Origin: an uncultured Pirellulales bacterium
GTDB taxonomy: Bacteria; Planctomycetota; Planctomycetia; Pirellulales; Thermoguttaceae
DNA: 64,000 bases
NCBI GenBank assembly: GCA_938015445.1
Contig: CALLPE010000009.1
Coordinates: 1-64,000, forward strand
Direction: 5' to 3'
Below, one piece after another: positions 37,406 to 45,381 of this stretch; position 1 is the stretch's first letter; every line of letters begins with the position of its first letter. A program made the position numbers and the translations under genes. The notes under the pieces were generated by a model. The model ran no database searches. It was not told the DNA's origin and was given only the letters and a program-made list of their open reading frames with translations.

Positions 37406-38470
37406 ATGTCGCACCAGTTCACTCGCCGCCAGTTTGTGCGCGATTCAGCCGTTGCCACAGCGGGGTTGGCCATCGGGTTGACGCCTACCTTTACCGTTCA
37501 CGCCAATAATCCAGAGAAGGCCGACACCAGCAAGATCCTCAATTACAACCCCGACATGGAATACCGCCGTTGTGGGAAAACGAACCTGATGATTTCGGCG
37601 GTATGTTTAGGGGGTCACTGGAAGCGCATCGACAAAGTGGCTCCCAAGCCGGCCGATTTCGAGAAGAACCGCTACGACGTGGTCACCCGCTGCATCGAGC
37701 GCGGAATCAACTACATCGATGCCTGCACCGGCGGCGAGGTGATGGCGTACTCCAAGGCCCTAAAGGGACGGCGCGAGCAGATGTATTTGGGTTATTCCTG
37801 GTACGAGAACGAAAGCCGCTTCGAGCAATGGCGATCGTTCGAGAAGCTCAAGGAGAGCTTCGAGCAAGGGCTGAAGAAGGCCGGCTTGGAATACGTCGAT
37901 CTGTGGCGCATCACGCTGCACGAGCAGAGCAGCCGCCATAGCGATGCCGAGATCGAAGCGGCCGCCAAGGCGCTGGAATGGGCCAAAAAGGCCGGACTGG
38001 CGCGCTTCACTGGCGTGTCGTCGCACGATCGCCCGCACATCAAGAAGATGATCGAAACTTACCCGCAACTAGAAGTGATCTGCACGCCCTACACGGCCAA
38101 GACCAAGGTGGTCAGCGACGAGAGCGGTCTTTGGGCAGCGATGCAGAAGCTGGACGTGGGCTGGTTCGGGATCAAGCCGTTTGCCAGCAATTCGATCTTC
38201 AAGGGCGATAGCTCGCCGCAAAGCCCCACCTTCGAAGACGACAACCGCATCGCCCGACTAGCCATCCGCTACATCCTGTGCAACCCGGCGATTACCGCCC
38301 CCATCCCCGGCCTGATTACCACCGAGCAAGTGGATAATGTGGCGCTGGCCGTCAAAGAACGCCGCGAGTTGGACCTCCGAGAGAAGGCGGAACTGGATCG
38401 GGCGATGGACCGCGCTTGGGCCAATTTGCCGCCTCACTATCAGTGGCTGAAAGACTGGGAGTACGTTTGA
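37406..38470 (+). CDS. Tat-exported aldo/keto reductase
   Basis: The 354-aa product starts with a twin-arginine signal (FTRRQFVRDSAVATAGLAIG; AAGGAG 7 nt before the ATG at 37406). The AKR barrel follows: MEYRRCGKTNLMISAVCLGG, GINYIDACTGGEVMAYSKAL where the usual catalytic Asp/Tyr pair lies (D in NYIDAC, Tyr in the ...AYSK segment), LEYVDLWRITLHEQ, GLARFTGVSSHDRP, and the NADP-site-like IPGLITTEQVDNVALAV. The substrate is unknown. It is 77 bp upstream of the tetraheme cytochrome, and the following three genes all face the same way, so a periplasmic redox cluster is plausible. Confidence 0.85.
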   Translation: MSHQFTRRQFVRDSAVATAGLAIGLTPTFTVHANNPEKADTSKILNYNPDMEYRRCGKTNLMISAVCLGGHWKRIDKVAPKPADFEKNRYDVVTRCIERGINYIDACTGGEVMAYSKALKGRREQMYLGYSWYENESRFEQWRSFEKLKESFEQGLKKAGLEYVDLWRITLHEQSSRHSDAEIEAAAKALEWAKKAGLARFTGVSSHDRPHIKKMIETYPQLEVICTPYTAKTKVVSDESGLWAAMQKLDVGWFGIKPFASNSIFKGDSSPQSPTFEDDNRIARLAIRYILCNPAITAPIPGLITTEQVDNVALAVKERRELDLREKAELDRAMDRAWANLPPHYQWLKDWEYV

Positions 38471-38547
38471 CCGACGCTGCCTGCCGGCCGACTGGCTGTG
38501 CAGGCCTTCTTGTTTCTCTGCGACGCATCTTCCTTAGCAACGCAACC

Positions 38548-39231
38548 ATGAAGCTTATTGCAAGCCGGATTATCCTGACGGCAACAGTGACGCTATGCGC
38601 AGTCGCGGCCGTGTGGTTAGCAGGTAAACACGGGGGACAGTGTGCTCCGCTGGGGCCGAGCGCAGCCTTCGGCCGCGCAGATGAACCCGCTGAGAATCCT
38701 GTTGCAAAAAGTATGCCGCCGGGTGAGGCCCCGAAAAACCATCCCGGCAAGCCGCCGCCTTTGCAGATCGACAAAGGCGCGCCGCTATTGCTCGAAGAGC
38801 CGCCGCAGTCGCCCCAAAGGAAAGCTTTCGCCCAGAACGAAGCCTGCTACGTATGCCACGAGAATTACCGCGAAGAATCCTTTGCCGATTACCACGCTCG
38901 GGCCGAGGTGGGCTGCATAAAGTGCCATGGCGAGTCGGTGGCGCACCGCGGCGACGAGTCGAACCTGACTCCGCCGGAAATCATGTTTCCGCCCGAGGCG
39001 ATCGAGAAGAACTGCAAGGCTTGCCACGATACCCACGATGCTCCCGCGGCCAAGGTAATCGCCTTGTGGCTTGAAAGATGTCAGAACCGTAGCAGTCCGA
39101 AAGAACTGCTCTGCACCGATTGCCACGGCGAGCACCGGTTGGCGGTGCGAACAATCGTATGGGACAAACGCACCGGCAAGTTGCTGCGCAAACCACAACA
39201 ATTCGGCAATGCCGACTCCAGAGCCGAGTGA
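38548..39231 (+). CDS. Secreted or membrane-anchored tetraheme cytochrome c
   Basis: The 227-aa product begins with a signal/anchor (MKLIASRIILTATVTLCAVA). Four CXXCH heme c motifs, CYVCH, CIKCH, CKACH and CTDCH, lie in the C-terminal half (about residues 105-190), preceded by a Pro-rich linker. It should carry electrons in the periplasm. No NapC-type domain is evident and the partner is unknown. It starts 77 bp after the Tat aldo/keto reductase and ends about 100 bp before the Tat Gfo/Idh/MocA gene. The Gfo/Idh/MocA protein would normally use NAD(P), so electron flow between the two is speculative. Confidence 0.85.
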   Translation: MKLIASRIILTATVTLCAVAAVWLAGKHGGQCAPLGPSAAFGRADEPAENPVAKSMPPGEAPKNHPGKPPPLQIDKGAPLLLEEPPQSPQRKAFAQNEACYVCHENYREESFADYHARAEVGCIKCHGESVAHRGDESNLTPPEIMFPPEAIEKNCKACHDTHDAPAAKVIALWLERCQNRSSPKELLCTDCHGEHRLAVRTIVWDKRTGKLLRKPQQFGNADSRAE

Positions 39232-39331
39232 GCGTGGCAGTTGTACGAGTTCAATGGGCACCCCTGGGCGCGGGTGCAGGAAAGGGACTTTCAAAACAAC
39301 TCCTACTACTTTAAGAGGCGGGGATGCGCAC

Positions 39332-40684
39332 ATGGCACCGACTGGAACACTGTCGCGACGCAAGTTTTTGGAGAGCAGCGCTGTGTTGTCGGCCTGTTGG
39401 GCCGCGCCTTATGTCCTAAGCGCCGGGGCGCTGGGGGCTGACAACCAGCCGCCGCCCAGCGAGCGGATCGGCGTTGCTCTGATCGGCTGCGGGGGCATGG
39501 GAATGGGCAATCTGGCCAACTGCGCCCGTTATCCCGATGTTGTGGTAGTGGCCGTTTGCGACGTCTGGCAGCAGCGCCGCGAGGCCGCGTTGGCCAAGTA
39601 CGAGAAAACGGCTAAAGCATATCGCGACTATCGGGAGGTGTTGGCCCTGAAGGAGGTCGACGGGGTGATAATCGCCAGCCCGCCTCACTGGCACGCGCTG
39701 CAAACGATCGAAGCCTGCGAGGCCGGCAAAGACGTGTACGTGCAAAAGCCGATGACCATCTATCTGGACGAGGCCTTGGCAGTCCGCCGCGCAGCCGAGC
39801 AGCATCGACGCGTCACGCAGGTGGGCACGCAAATCCACGCTGGCGAGAACTACCGGCGCGTGGTGGAGTGGGTGCGATCGGGCCGGTTGGGAAAGATCAG
39901 CGTGGTGAGGACGTTTTTGGCGGGCAACCAGGGCGAGGAGGGCATCGGACACGCGCAGCCGGGCGATCCGCCGCCGGGAATGGACTGGAACTTGTGGTGC
40001 GGACCAGCGCCGCTGCGGCCCTACAACCCCCTGATGTGCGCCAACGCCAGCACCAACTGTTCGTTCATGGACTACAGCGGCGGATACACGCCCGGCATGG
40101 CGCCGCACATCATCGACCTGCCCTACTGGGCCTTGGAACTGGGATTCCCGCTGGTCACCAGCGCCGCTGGCGGCCGCTACGTAGTACGCGACTGCGGCGA
40201 CGCCTACGACACACAGGACGTGTTGTGGCAATTCCCCGACATGACGATGACCTGGATGCTTCATCTGTGCAATAGCTACGGATACGACTTGCAAGGGCCG
40301 GATAACAAAATCCGCCGCCGGTTGGGTGTCTACTTCCAGGGTGTAAACGGTACTTTGTTCGCCGACTATTCCACGCACAAGGTCGTCCCTGAAGGTGATC
40401 GCCTGAAAGACTTGCAGCCGCCAGAAAAGAGCATTCCGCCCTCGCCGGGGCACGAGCGGGAATGGCTCGACGCCATCCGCACCCGCCAGCAGCCAAGCTG
40501 CAACGTGTCGTATCATTACAAGCTGGACGCGGCCATCGGGCTGGCGAACATTTCGTACAAGTTGCAGCGGTCTGTCCGCTTTGATCCTGCTACCGAGAAA
40601 ATCGTCGGCGATGCAGAAGCTGCCCGACTGGCTCGTCCCGTGTACCGCGATCCCTGGAAATTCCCAGAAAAATACTTGACATAG
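39332..40684 (+). CDS. Tat-exported Gfo/Idh/MocA oxidoreductase
   Basis: The 450-aa product has a twin-arginine signal (SRRKFLESSAVLSACWAAPY) and a Rossmann domain with IGVALIGCGGMGMGNLANCA, IIASPPHWHALQTIEACEAG and KDVYVQKPMTIYLDEAL (the family's EKP motif appears as QKP). The C-terminal domain contains GTQIHAGENYRRVVEWVRSG, MDWNLWCGPAP and GGYTPGMAPHIIDLPYWAL. This Tat-exported type is abundant in planctomycetes; several glycosidases with NAD-dependent redox catalysis belong here, so a glycan-processing role is possible. The ATG at 39332 was chosen as it precedes the Tat motif directly. Confidence 0.88.
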   Translation: MAPTGTLSRRKFLESSAVLSACWAAPYVLSAGALGADNQPPPSERIGVALIGCGGMGMGNLANCARYPDVVVVAVCDVWQQRREAALAKYEKTAKAYRDYREVLALKEVDGVIIASPPHWHALQTIEACEAGKDVYVQKPMTIYLDEALAVRRAAEQHRRVTQVGTQIHAGENYRRVVEWVRSGRLGKISVVRTFLAGNQGEEGIGHAQPGDPPPGMDWNLWCGPAPLRPYNPLMCANASTNCSFMDYSGGYTPGMAPHIIDLPYWALELGFPLVTSAAGGRYVVRDCGDAYDTQDVLWQFPDMTMTWMLHLCNSYGYDLQGPDNKIRRRLGVYFQGVNGTLFADYSTHKVVPEGDRLKDLQPPEKSIPPSPGHEREWLDAIRTRQQPSCNVSYHYKLDAAIGLANISYKLQRSVRFDPATEKIVGDAEAARLARPVYRDPWKFPEKYLT

Positions 40685-41239: not shown

Positions 41240-41671
41240 ATGTCTGAGACAAAACCGCGCAAGCACGCCGCGCGGCCGTCGGCGCAACCGAGGCGCGCCT
41301 TTTTGGCGAAGTCGGCTGGGATGGGCGCGTTCGCTTTGGCTCTAGAGGGGTTGCTTTACGGCAGTTCAACGGCTCAAGGAGCGGCGGATATCCGCATTGC
41401 CCCAGGCGGTCCAATTCGCGCAGGTGATGCGAAAATCACCGAGGCGCAAGCCGCCAGGCTGAACGCCGTCCACAACGTCGTCGAGATGGCGATGGAGTCC
41501 GGCGACATTCAGGCCGCACTTGCCAGGGCGGGCAAGAATCTCAGCGCCGAGGATAGGAACGGTCTGGCCCAGTTGACCCGCGAGGACCTTGCCGCGCTGA
41601 AAAGAATCCGGCAGAAGGTCAAAGCCCTCGGGCCGGAGCTTGCCGGCCTGAATGGAATTTTCGGCTGTTGA
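41240..41671 (+). CDS. Small Tat-signal protein, candidate substrate of the radical SAM enzymes
   Basis: The 143-aa product (ATG at 41240, AAGGAG 7 nt upstream) carries a twin-arginine signal (QPRRAFLAKSAGMGAFALAL, about residues 17-46). A mature part of about 95 residues follows, rich in Ala, Leu and charged residues, with helical stretches (AQAARLNAVHNVVEMAMESG, LTREDLAALKRIRQKVKALG) and ending GPELAGLNGIFGC. The terminal Cys is the only cysteine in the protein. The region is followed, after a hairpin, by three radical SAM/SPASM genes on the same strand, so I infer that this is their substrate, modified in the cytoplasm and exported folded by Tat. I recognise no known RiPP family. An unrelated exported protein that is only a neighbour is the alternative. 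Confidence 0.7.
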   Translation: MSETKPRKHAARPSAQPRRAFLAKSAGMGAFALALEGLLYGSSTAQGAADIRIAPGGPIRAGDAKITEAQAARLNAVHNVVEMAMESGDIQAALARAGKNLSAEDRNGLAQLTREDLAALKRIRQKVKALGPELAGLNGIFGC

Positions 41672-41860
41672 TGGCCCAGTGAGGGAGCCGACAGCGGAGT
41701 GGGCGGTCCCGTGCGGTTAGGTGTTCGCCGTTCACACGCCGCAAAGAAGAATGCGGGCTGTTAGTTACAGCTTATCGACGGCCGCGGAATCGGGTAGCGG
41801 TCGAAGAACCCTGGGCGAAGGAAGCTCTTTCCATTGCTGGGGACGCATTGCAAACCACGG

Positions 41861-41895
41861 GGAGGCGGGTTCGCCTTCACGACGAACCCGCCTTC
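41861..41895 (+). promoter_or_regulatory. Strong hairpin between the small Tat gene and the radical SAM genes
   Basis: The arms GGAGGCGGGTTCG (41861-41873) and CGAACCCGCCTTC (41883-41895) pair in full (13 bp including one G-T) around a 9-nt loop, with no T-run after it. In RiPP-type operons such a stem often limits read-through so that the precursor is made in excess of the enzymes. It lies in the 313-bp gap between 41672 and 41984, which otherwise has no gene. Confidence 0.6.
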
Positions 41896-41984
41896 AGTGA
41901 ATCTCTGTCCCTCACAGGGCGAAGGCGCAGTTGGACGGCAGCTCTGTTTTGGGTACGAAACACCGCGACAAACGGTCCACTCCT

Positions 41985-43067
41985 ATGGGCGGCACAATAA
42001 AATACGTGCTGACCGATCGCTGTAACGGTGCGTGCAGCTACTGCTTCATTCGCGGTCGTCTGCCCCACGGGTCGATGTCGCCGCAGGACGTAGTGAAGTC
42101 TTTCGATGTGCTTTGGCCCGCCTTTGAAAACCACTTCGATTGCGTTCATTTCTTCGGCGGCGAACCTACGTTGCGCATGGACCTGGTCGAGCTTGCCACC
42201 GAGATCGCACTGGAACGCTGCCGAGCGACCGGCCTCAAAGCTCCTACGGTTTTTATTTCCACCAACTGCTTGGAACTGAGCGACAGATTGCTGCATTTCC
42301 TGGTCAATCACCGCGAGCGAGTGCTTCTGATAACCAGCGTCGACGGTCCTGCTGATATTCATGACCACGGGCGGGGGGCGGGCAGTTATTCCCGCGTTGC
42401 AGCCAACGCCGCCCGGCTCCGTTCCGAAGGCATCCAGATATTCAACGTCACTGCCGTTTACGGGCAACCGGCATATCGTGCTGGGCTCAGTCCCTATCAA
42501 ATCGCGGAACAATTGGTCGCAGAGCTGGCCCCAGTGTCTATCACCTTCAACCTCCTACACACTAATCAAGCAAAGGAATCGCTGGAGCCGGATGTTTTCT
42601 ACAAACAGCTTTTCCGAGGCTACCGGGCGGCCTTGCAGGACTTACGCAGCACCGACCAGCGACGTCGGGCGGTCGCCGAGGCTTTCCTCCACATCGACCT
42701 GGCCCGTATGGGAGTGCAGAGGCCCTACTATTGCGACTTCGGAATCAGCAGCATCGCTGTTTTTCCGGGCGGCCTGGTGGATGTATGTTCCGACGTGCCG
42801 TTGTTCGGCATGACACCGCGGGCGTGTGTACACGATCCGGAGTTTCCGCGAAGGCTTTCGCAGTTGCGCGCCGAGGCGGAACAGCGCAACTGGAAATCGT
42901 CGGGCGCCGTCTGCCGCAGATGTTTTGCCGCGGGGAGCTGCCATCTGTGCCCATTCTGGCCGCCGCAACGTCGCGCGGCGCATTGTCAATTCCTAAGACG
43001 CAAACATGCCCTTTTGACCGGCGCGGCCGAGGGCGGCGACGAGTTTGCAGCGACTTGGAACGCATGA
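41985..43067 (+). CDS. Radical SAM/SPASM protein 1 of the Tat-peptide cassette
   Basis: The 360-aa product binds the radical SAM [4Fe-4S] cluster through C13-x3-C17-x2-C20 (CNGACSYC). The GGE motif is present (HFFGGEPTL). The C-terminal part has the SPASM pattern of further cluster ligands: C-x12-G-x4-C (PYYCDFGISS to VDVC), then CRRCFAAGSCHLC (C-x2-C-x5-C-x2-C) and a last Cys in AAHCQ. Such enzymes modify peptides or proteins by radical chemistry. I use the ATG at 41985 because the first Cys falls at residue 13 as in relatives; TTG 41931 and TTG 41949 are alternatives. Its stop lies 10 nt before the next gene, so the enzymes are a tight operon. Confidence 0.85.
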   Translation: MGGTIKYVLTDRCNGACSYCFIRGRLPHGSMSPQDVVKSFDVLWPAFENHFDCVHFFGGEPTLRMDLVELATEIALERCRATGLKAPTVFISTNCLELSDRLLHFLVNHRERVLLITSVDGPADIHDHGRGAGSYSRVAANAARLRSEGIQIFNVTAVYGQPAYRAGLSPYQIAEQLVAELAPVSITFNLLHTNQAKESLEPDVFYKQLFRGYRAALQDLRSTDQRRRAVAEAFLHIDLARMGVQRPYYCDFGISSIAVFPGGLVDVCSDVPLFGMTPRACVHDPEFPRRLSQLRAEAEQRNWKSSGAVCRRCFAAGSCHLCPFWPPQRRAAHCQFLRRKHALLTGAAEGGDEFAATWNA

Positions 43068-43077
43068 GGTGGCAGCT

Positions 43078-44253
43078 ATGCAAATGCTGTGGGACGTTAC
43101 CAATACCTGCAACCAGCGGTGCCGGCACTGCTACAACAGCCGATTCATCAATCAGCGACACTGCCCGGATTCGCCGTGGAACGACGTTGTGCACGAGCGG
43201 TTTAGACGCTTCATCGCGTTGAACGATGTGCATCTGGTGACGCTGGCTGGCGGCGAGCCGTTTACCCGCACGGACATCTTCCAGGTGATCGACGCCCTGG
43301 CCGGCGACGCAGGGGTGGCCGTGACGACCAACGCCACGCTTATCAGCGGATCGGTGGCCAAGCAGATCGCCCGCTCGCCGCTGGCGAAAGTGGCCGTGAG
43401 CCTGGAAAGCGCCGATGCGGCTGCTTACGACTGGAATCGCGGAGGCGTTTTTTTCGAGCGTTTTCGTGCCGGTTTGGCCCGGTTGTCTGACGCGCGCCGC
43501 AACGGCTCAGGCCGTTTCTGGCTGGAGTTGAGCGTCACGATCTTGCCGTGGTGTCTGAAAGACGAGCCGGACGTGACTGCGGTTTACGAGCTTGGCCGAC
43601 AGACCGGCTGCGACAGCATCTGTTACCAGTTTGCGAACTCGGCCGGGGTCGGTTGGGAATACCTGGCCGACGCGCGATACGTGGCACACATTGCCGGCGT
43701 CATTGCCCGGCTGAGCCGCCATTATCTTGATATCGTGACCACTCTGCAGTACAAGCGCTGCCTCGTCGATTATTGCAACGCGTGCTTTTCTGCCGATTTG
43801 CTAGGCGGCAAGACCCTTTGTCCGGCCGGCACGGAAGTCGTTTACATGGACAACCAACTGCGGCTCTTTCCGTGTATCTACCACAATGGCGGACCGCAAG
43901 ACAAACTGCGCATTGCCGCGGCCCTCGGTTGGGACGAGCAGGACGATGCAAACCATCTACGGAACATCGAACGCTTGGACCGATGTCCGCTTTTTGTGCG
44001 CTTCGACCAATTGAAGCGGAAGATCGCCGGCACAGCATATCGAGCGTGCCGGACGTGCCCCAATGATTCGCGGTGCTACAAGGTCTGTCCATACGATTAC
44101 ATACTCAACCGCAAGGTGGCTGTTAGAAATCTTGCCGGGGTATGCGAGCTGATTCGGCCGGCCATGGACGCCAACGCCGCCTCGCCTGTCGAAGCGGAGC
44201 AGGCCGGCCAGCGCGCCTCCAGGGCGGAGAATCCAGAATCCACTTGTCCGTGA
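43078..44253 (+). CDS. Radical SAM/SPASM protein 2 of the Tat-peptide cassette
   Basis: The 391-aa product has the cluster motif C11-x3-C15-x2-C18 (CNQRCRHC), GGE in TLAGGEPFTRTD, and a full SPASM set near the C-terminus: Cys pair around TEVVYMDNQLRLFP, then CRTCPNDSRCYKVC (C-x2-C-x5-C-x3-C) and a final Cys in AGVCELIR. The start at 43078 has GAGGTGG upstream; it begins 10 nt after the stop of enzyme 1. The pattern is the most canonical of the three SPASM sets. It probably installs a crosslink or other modification on the Tat protein at 41240; the exact reaction cannot be read from sequence. Confidence 0.87.
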   Translation: MQMLWDVTNTCNQRCRHCYNSRFINQRHCPDSPWNDVVHERFRRFIALNDVHLVTLAGGEPFTRTDIFQVIDALAGDAGVAVTTNATLISGSVAKQIARSPLAKVAVSLESADAAAYDWNRGGVFFERFRAGLARLSDARRNGSGRFWLELSVTILPWCLKDEPDVTAVYELGRQTGCDSICYQFANSAGVGWEYLADARYVAHIAGVIARLSRHYLDIVTTLQYKRCLVDYCNACFSADLLGGKTLCPAGTEVVYMDNQLRLFPCIYHNGGPQDKLRIAAALGWDEQDDANHLRNIERLDRCPLFVRFDQLKRKIAGTAYRACRTCPNDSRCYKVCPYDYILNRKVAVRNLAGVCELIRPAMDANAASPVEAEQAGQRASRAENPESTCP

Positions 44254-44277
44254 GTTGTATTGGGCCTGGGGCGGGCG

Positions 44278-45381
44278 ATGGTTTCCAAGGCGCTTTCCGA
44301 CTACAGCGAATGGTTCTACTGCCTGCGCGCAGGCCTGTTCCGCCGACGATGCTACGTGCAGATACATGTCACTACTCGGTGCCTGAACCGTTGCTCCGCT
44401 TGCTACTACCGCCTCAGAAACCAGGACCGGCAATCTGCCAATCAACTCAGCCTGGCGGAGATCATCGCCCTAATCGACGCCTGGCATCGGGCAGCCGAGT
44501 TGCATCACATGCCGATTACGGTCGATTTGACCGGCGGCGACCCGCTGTTGCATCCGGGCTTCTGGGATGTGTTGGAGCACCTGCGGCGGTCCGGGATAGA
44601 TTTCGGCCTCAAAGCCAATCCCCATCTGTTGGACAAGGCCACGGTCTTGCGCCTGGCCGATTTGGGGCTGAAACGTTTTCAACTCAGTCTGGACGGCGCC
44701 GGCCCTAACCATGACTTGATTAGGGGGTGCCGGGGCTTGTTCCGTACAACCATCAAGGCGATGCGTCTTCTGGCAAACGCCCGAATCACGCCGGTCGTGC
44801 GCTATACGGTCTCTGGCCGCAATTGCGACGATCTGGCGCGCCTTCAGCACCTGCTGCACGCAACAGGAATCCCCTGTAATCTTTCGGTTACACCGTTGGT
44901 GGATTTCGCCCACCACTCGAACAACCTTCCAGTGCAGGACCTGCTTGCAATCTATCGCGATCACGTTCGGCTGTTCGGCCGGCATCTGGCTGCGGGAAGC
45001 AGTTATCGCCTTTTCTACAAAGACCACCTGTTCTTTCCGTTGCTCCACCAAATGGGCGTCTTGTCGGACCAGTTTGTACGCGCCTGCGTCCGTGGCAGGC
45101 TGTCCATGCGTTGCACCATGTTCGAGCATGTGTACATCGTGGATGCAGACGGCACTTTGAAACTGTGCCAAAAGCTCCCAGAGGCTGTTCTCGGACCAGT
45201 ATCGGGACAAGACCTAGCCGTGCTTTTGGACGACTGCACCCACCGCTATCCGTTTGGCGTCTGCTTCAGCGCGGAATGTCGGCAATGCTATTACGAATAC
45301 CAGTGCTTCGGATGTCCCGCCCGAAAAAAGGCGGCCGGGGAAACTGCTTGTCCATTGTTTGTCGCCAATCATGGCCAGTAG
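44278..45381 (+). CDS. Radical SAM/SPASM protein 3 of the Tat-peptide cassette
   Basis: The 367-aa product has the cluster motif C35-x3-C39-x2-C42 (CLNRCSAC) after a longer N-terminal extension with the basic stretch LFRRRCYVQIHVTTR. The usual GGE appears as GGD (DLTGGDPLLHP). Its SPASM region has C-x12-G-x4-C (MRCTMFEHVY to LKLC) and CRQCYYEYQCFGC with a final Cys in ETACPLF. The ATG at 44278 is 24 nt after the stop of enzyme 2; TTG 44260 is in frame. All three enzymes are distinct sequences and not recent duplicates, which suggests three different steps or a division of labour on one substrate. Confidence 0.86.
   Translation: MVSKALSDYSEWFYCLRAGLFRRRCYVQIHVTTRCLNRCSACYYRLRNQDRQSANQLSLAEIIALIDAWHRAAELHHMPITVDLTGGDPLLHPGFWDVLEHLRRSGIDFGLKANPHLLDKATVLRLADLGLKRFQLSLDGAGPNHDLIRGCRGLFRTTIKAMRLLANARITPVVRYTVSGRNCDDLARLQHLLHATGIPCNLSVTPLVDFAHHSNNLPVQDLLAIYRDHVRLFGRHLAAGSSYRLFYKDHLFFPLLHQMGVLSDQFVRACVRGRLSMRCTMFEHVYIVDADGTLKLCQKLPEAVLGPVSGQDLAVLLDDCTHRYPFGVCFSAECRQCYYEYQCFGCPARKKAAGETACPLFVANHGQ

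Follow-up and report, generated by a model that had tools for sequence, protein, structure and literature searches.

The small protein and the three radical SAM genes

The window analysed here comprises 64,000 nucleotides of contig CALLPE010000009.1 from an uncultured Pirellulales bacterium. Within it, the gene of a small protein with a twin-arginine N-terminus precedes, on the same strand, the genes of three radical S-adenosylmethionine (SAM) enzymes. We evaluated the small protein as a candidate substrate of these enzymes that might be exported by the twin-arginine translocation (Tat) system. The following elements were assigned at the locus (aa, amino acids):

41240..41671, + strand: small protein, 143 aa, with a twin-arginine N-terminus, linker, putative helical NHLP-like domain and Cys-ended tail; predicted substrate
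41291..41362, + strand: RRAFLAKSA motif and hydrophobic segment, residues 18-41; Tat signal predicted from motif and hydropathy
41441..41635, + strand: putative helical NHLP/Os1348-like domain, residues 68-132, with the profile-aligned core (residues 89-120) at 41504-41599
41645..41668, + strand: C-terminal tail GLNGIFGC, the predicted core, holding the only Cys of the protein
41863..41893, + strand: perfect 11-bp inverted repeat (loop of 9 nt) between the small gene and enzyme 1, which are 313 bp apart
41985..43067, + strand: radical SAM enzyme 1, 360 aa, with SPASM-like Cys; nearest model PapB (69 of 340 bits)
43078..44253, + strand: radical SAM enzyme 2, 391 aa, with SPASM-like Cys; nearest models mycofactocin, ScmF and AhbD (56-57 bits; cut-offs 265-500)
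44278..45381, + strand: radical SAM enzyme 3, 367 aa, with SPASM-like Cys; nearest model ACGX-system radical SAM (118.5 of 400 bits)

A preliminary description of this DNA had reported a 143-aa protein with a single, C-terminal cysteine, and the frame at 41240-41671 (+) agrees: its only Cys is residue 143, as is likewise the case in a close orthologue. The order of its parts (export-type N-terminus, recognition-type domain, short tail) is unlike that of the usual leader-first precursor.

A putative precursor-type domain in the small protein

Residues 93-135 of the small protein matched the NCBIfam aroma-sacti domain NF045560 (E 3.4e-4, 20.8 bits), and the orthologue (P0005, 80% identical overall) scored higher against the same model (E 1.4e-5, 25.2 bits), both values lying under the cut-off of 30. 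The Os1348 NHLP-clan model NF038399 gave E 0.038 and 14.1 bits with the whole protein and 16.0-16.3 bits with its C-terminal pieces, under the cut-off of 40 in each case; the orthologue had no match to NF038399. Residues 63-143 were further compared, profile against profile, with Planctomycetota NHLP-type domains found with NF038399, one of which comes from elsewhere in the source genome. With a profile of 16 domains, the pair of small protein and orthologue scored 27.8 (probability 71%, residues 89-120) and the two single sequences 26.4 and 23.3. The control maxima were 18.3 for 200 column shuffles, 18.3 for 300 random 81-residue segments of open reading frames (ORFs) of the contig and 20.95 for 200 helix-rich segments, and the reversed pair and residues 1-62 scored 13.3 and 11.5, respectively. 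As the 16 domains had been chosen by eye, the test was redone with all 30 domains. The pair then scored 26.9 and the single sequences 26.3 and 21.7, against maxima of 20.4 for 200 helix-rich and 20.5 for 200 random segments, so that the pair stayed over all controls and the orthologue alone barely so (21.7 versus 20.5). The control segments were drawn from 62 six-frame ORFs of at least 250 codons on the contig, some of which are surely not genuine genes.

In the structural comparisons, Os1348 was the top match to the small protein and was individually weak. For the full-length model (predicted local distance difference test score, pLDDT, 57), Foldseek placed Os1348 at rank 7 of 12 (E 8.4), and VIA-align of that model did not list it. 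Searched by sequence against solved structures, the small protein gave weak matches only, to delta antigen (the best, E 0.022) and to designed proteins. The profile alignment spans 32 residues only, and the first helix of the domain is therefore taken from the structure model alone. The GLNGIFGC tail formed a low-confidence end in both structure models.

Taken together, the sub-threshold model matches and the profile comparisons, and more weakly the structure comparisons, support the view that the C-terminal half of the small protein forms a helical domain and is a distant relative of the Os1348/NHLP precursor domain of ribosomally synthesized and post-translationally modified peptides (RiPPs). 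Such a precursor-like domain supports the substrate reading beyond mere adjacency, which strengthens the earlier proposal of a small-protein substrate for several radical SAM enzymes. The accompanying statement that no described family matches was only partly right, because the substrate domain would be a relative of the described Os1348/NHLP domain.

Conservation of the small protein and features of the enzymes

In the protein collection, where the small protein matched only itself and P0005, one close orthologue each was found for the small protein (P0005, 80%), enzyme 2 (P0021, 69%) and enzyme 3 (P0007, 75%), all from metagenome sources. The longest contigs encoding them measure 5110, 3443 and 3443 bases, respectively, which suggests that P0005 probably does not share a contig with the other two. 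Identity between the small protein and its orthologue was highest in residues 18-50, which hold the RR motif and the hydrophobic stretch (31/33), compared with 11/17 in residues 1-17, 11/16 in the linker (51-66), 19/22 in residues 67-88, 34/44 in residues 89-132 and 8/11 in residues 133-143. The tail, whose conservation the preliminary description had singled out for study, is kept in this one orthologue as GMNGVFGC. At 80%, the small protein is no less conserved than enzymes 2 and 3 (69% and 75%), which would fit a fixed physiological role of the product better than a fast-evolving antimicrobial.

All three enzymes matched the Pfam model Radical_SAM (PF04055; E 4.8e-17, 4.5e-17 and 4.9e-16 for enzymes 1, 2 and 3) and carried CX3CX2C near the N-terminus (C13, C11 and C35), as the preliminary description had it for three different radical SAM proteins. 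The SPASM cysteines it had also listed were recovered as a seven-Cys set in each enzyme (C-x17-C, then C-x2-C-x5-C-x2/3-C and a final C), whereas the matches of the enzymes at E≤0.1 did not include the Pfam SPASM model (PF13186); the SPASM assignment is accordingly made from the Cys pattern. The radical SAM and SPASM-like cysteines of enzymes 2 and 3 were kept in their orthologues. None of the three reached the cut-off of its nearest model: enzyme 1 scored 69.3 of 340 bits against the PapB ranthipeptide maturase model (NF047865), enzyme 3 118.5 of 400 bits against the ACGX system model (TIGR04340), and enzyme 2 56.8 of 265 bits against its best model, the mycofactocin radical SAM. With a single Cys and no ACG, the small protein differs from ACGX-repeat peptides. 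PqqD/RRE-type recognition proteins are common in RiPP pathways, though not universal; PF05402 had no match in the source genome, and the control search was positive in 3/14 genomes.

Distribution of the locus

The genome searches for the small protein and the enzymes cover the thresholds stated here, with weaker relatives outside their reach. Among 147 genomes (the source genome and relatives), the small protein was matched at E≤0.01 in the source genome and G038 only, and among 397 genomes of the class at E≤0.001 in the source genome and G202 only. The match in G038 covers residues 9-80, the signal side, inside a 530-aa frame, and it was not accepted as a relative; the match in G202 (21.1 bits) was judged from its ORF list alone to be due to chance. 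With limits of E≤1e-25 for enzyme 1 and E≤1e-30 for enzyme 3, the source genome was the only one matched (1/147 each), and it was likewise the only one within the family for enzyme 2 at E≤1e-15 (1/119). Domain NF045560 was matched in two genomes each among 99 relatives (E≤0.01) and in a 392-genome sample of the phylum (E≤0.001), none over the cut-off; the source genome was one of the two both times, together with G115 or G713. When genome contigs were scanned with a single pattern for enzyme 3 relatives, 79 loci were obtained, and among their 6398 ORFs no clear relative of the small protein was present (best E 0.59).

Other NHLP loci in Planctomycetota and Halanaerobiales

The same contig encodes, 43 kb on and outside the window, a second NHLP and twin-arginine protein (C9:84668-85528, 286 aa). 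Its parts follow in the order NHLP domain, then HRRAFLGKAAAAMLAALGAM, then acyl-carrier domain. The NHLP domain scored 33.3 bits against NF038399 (cut-off 40), with weak matches to PF02979 and PF14407, and the RR stretch reached 9.9 of the required 16.7 bits against TIGR01409. The next gene encodes a B12-binding radical SAM protein nearest to the ApyD model (176 of 750 bits), and the pair spans C9:84668-87096 (L125:8668-11096). Four further NHLP stretches were inspected; the same type of B12-binding enzyme adjoins in L126 and L129, and none was flagged in L127 and L128.

In the phylum sample, NF038399 was matched in 29/392 genomes at E≤0.001 and passed its cut-off in 7/392; 30 of the 48 matches were examined as loci. 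A hydrophobic segment occurred soon after the NHLP domain in 11/30 loci, accompanied by a twin basic pair in 4/30, and one of these four (L109) passes TIGR01409. The loci with B12-binding enzymes (C9:84668-87096, L126 and L129) resemble the window locus in having an NHLP-type domain beside a radical SAM gene, and in some of them the protein with the domain also has a twin-arginine signal or another hydrophobic one. They differ in that the domain stands before the signal, whereas it follows the signal in the small protein of the window, and in that a single B12-binding enzyme takes the place of three SPASM-type ones. In seven of the 30 loci (L095, L097, L100, L103, L105, L109 and L110), GIxPDxP-like motifs such as GIRPDRP, GVQPDRP and GISPDIP were seen after the NHLP domain, versus 0/62 control ORFs; they may be a core motif that recurs in a so far undescribed family of precursors.

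One of the 79 enzyme-3-type loci, L021:3640-8421 from a Halanaerobiales metagenome-assembled genome, has three radical SAM genes that share a strand, the second being separated from the third by the gene of an Os1348-like precursor of 94 aa (28.6 of 40 bits). Its enzymes share their nearest models with those of the window: PapB (enzyme 1), ACGX (enzyme 3) and the mycofactocin/AhbD/NirJ group (enzyme 2). Unlike the window locus, it has a Cys-rich core, no signal sequence was seen, and one enzyme has a long N-terminal extension. The enzymes of the two loci are 26-30% identical and hhalign found no alignment between the small protein and the L021 precursor, which makes L021 a parallel and not a proof of descent. 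In L040:6947-9526 and L038:7971-10273, two adjacent radical SAM genes lie 3' of an ABC-transporter-like gene, followed in L040 by a gene for a small Cys-rich protein; this looks like a separate peptide-modification cluster.

Proposed mechanism and alternative explanations

The anatomy of the small protein and its domain resemblance are observed; catalysis and export are what we infer. We consider it moderately probable that the small protein is an NHLP-type substrate modified in the cytoplasm by the three adjacent radical SAM enzymes, and that the folded product is exported via Tat. The enzymes would bind the helical domain (residues 68-132) as a recognition element while the protein is in the cytoplasm, and would act in turn on the one substrate, changing its Cys-ended tail. 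The modified residues would lie within GLNGIFGC, where the sole Cys and Phe or Asn are the obvious targets of a thioether or carbon cross-link. If the twin-arginine signal is functional, the folded product would leave via Tat after modification, and signal cleavage would leave, outside the cytoplasm, a helical protein of about 95 residues that bears the modified tail. For peptides modified in this way, such an export route would be unusual. It would make a dedicated transporter or leader peptidase unnecessary; the absence of both, judged from the neighbouring genes only, fits this mechanism and is no proof of it.

Several observations weigh against parts of this proposal. The predicted twin-arginine signal, claimed together with Tat export in the preliminary description, is backed by the RRAFLAKSA motif, which agrees with the usual twin-arginine pattern and is identical in the orthologue, and by the hydropathy of the N-terminus (best 13-residue value 1.58). 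The Tat signal models TIGR01409 and PF10518 did not match this N-terminus, however, a Glu lies inside the hydrophobic stretch of both the small protein and its orthologue, and TatC was not found in the source draft genome, which is 87.9% complete. These points favour a substrate whose twin-arginine stretch is a membrane anchor or N-terminal extension, the product staying within the membrane or on its inner face, an explanation that we regard as doubtful. Besides the conserved motif, it has to contend with the behaviour of the same models on the three other twin-arginine proteins of the window, two of which they miss or barely detect: the aldo/keto reductase passes TIGR01409, the Gfo/Idh dehydrogenase matches PF10518 under the cut-off, and a DUF362 protein with a twin-arginine start matches neither. 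TatC was present in 72 of the 80 genomes searched (the source genome among the 80), and an incomplete assembly is the likelier cause of its absence.

The connection between the small gene and the enzymes is the other point of debate. The tight spacing described earlier applies to the three enzyme genes, which are separated by 10 and 24 bp on one strand, whereas a stretch of 313 bp separates the small gene from enzyme 1, which follows it. The preliminary description had looked to other planctomycetes for conserved co-occurrence, and none was found at the thresholds used; the linkage of the small gene with the enzymes was seen in one genome, the orthologues coming from metagenome contigs. The enzymes might thus make a cofactor or another peptide, with an unrelated exported helical protein lying upstream by chance, and enzyme 2 is indeed nearest to cofactor-type models (mycofactocin, AhbD and NirJ). 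We rate such a coincidence as decidedly unlikely, given the RiPP-precursor-like domain of the small protein and the fact that the small protein and enzymes 2 and 3 have close orthologues only in metagenome contigs, at similar divergence. It also seems unlikely that the enzymes lack a common substrate, the small protein being the target of one or two of them and some other molecule that of the remainder; the three differ in their nearest families, but their genes are closely spaced on one strand and L021 has three corresponding subtypes around one precursor.

Directly upstream (37406-40684 of the window) lie genes for an aldo/keto reductase with a Tat signal, a multihaem cytochrome c (38548-39231) and a Gfo/Idh dehydrogenase with a twin-arginine start (39329-40684). 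They are possible redox partners of the product. A more specific variant, which we regard as a long shot, is a Tat-exported protein cofactor: by cross-linking, the enzymes would convert the GLNGIFGC tail of a folded NHLP-type protein into a redox or metal-binding group, and the product would retain the recognition domain and, outside the cytoplasm, carry electrons between the Gfo/Idh dehydrogenase and the multihaem cytochrome c. The redox role is guessed from the neighbourhood of the genes in a single genome; its model (PMC3023750) would be mycofactocin as a carrier made by a radical SAM enzyme.

Sequence elements around the genes

The 11-bp inverted repeat before the enzyme genes was the one such match in the window, versus 0 in 100 shuffles, and the RNA structure of the 313-bp gap exceeded that of 100 shuffles (z -3.4). 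The hairpin at 41863-41893 is without a T run and could be an attenuator or processing site. By eye, ribosome-site-like sequences were present 5' of the small gene (GAAGGAG) and of enzyme 2 (GAGGTGG), and none was seen 5' of enzyme 1. Promoter and terminator scans of the locus were no better than shuffle level, the Rfam scan gave no match at the gathering score, and the GC content of the locus was similar to that of its flanks.

Significance and comparison with known systems

RiPP precursors normally start with a leader that gets removed. If the proposed mechanism is true, the order of signal, recognition domain and tiny core would mean that a folded modified protein is exported intact, with no need for a transporter or leader protease of its own. 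The second NHLP and twin-arginine protein on the contig, together with similar fusions in some other Planctomycetota, suggests that the phylum repeatedly couples NHLP-type maturation to general export. Such loci could escape precursor finders tuned to short leader-core peptides.

Like the Os1348/NHLP-clan precursors (NF038399), the small protein has a putative helical domain of precursor type and, behind it, a short and flexible C-terminus; in Os1348 of Pseudomonas sp. Os17 (PDB 6lk7), the last six residues are unseen in the crystal (PMC7726476). The similarity is sub-threshold (14-16 of 40 bits), and the small protein differs in the export-type N-terminus before the domain and the three radical SAM genes after it. 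Os1348 itself measures 85 aa and has other enzymes encoded downstream, and 'radical SAM' does not occur in the text of that paper (PMC7726476). The mycofactocin system likewise yields a ribosomal product matured by a radical SAM enzyme (PMC3023750), and its radical SAM is the best model of enzyme 2, although the score of enzyme 2 is far below the cut-off of that model. Bufferins and other signal-peptide RiPPs resemble the proposal in being modified in the cytoplasm and exported by a general route via their own signal peptide, and differ in using Sec or lipoprotein signals and MNIO enzymes (PMC12452194, PMC12636315). Sec signal peptides are called a rare feature of bacterial RiPPs in a 2025 survey (PMC12452194), and 'Tat' is absent from the main texts of both papers. 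Searches of an open literature collection for a RiPP precursor combined with twin-arginine/Tat and radical SAM/SPASM found no description, nor did those for aroma-sacti, three-radical-SAM RiPP loci with SPASM or planctomycete NHLP precursors, which is not proof of absence from print. With signal-peptide RiPPs already known for the Sec and lipoprotein routes, the locus is best read as a new arrangement of NHLP-type maturation, in which an N-terminal export signal, an internal recognition domain and a tiny C-terminal core would be combined in one protein.

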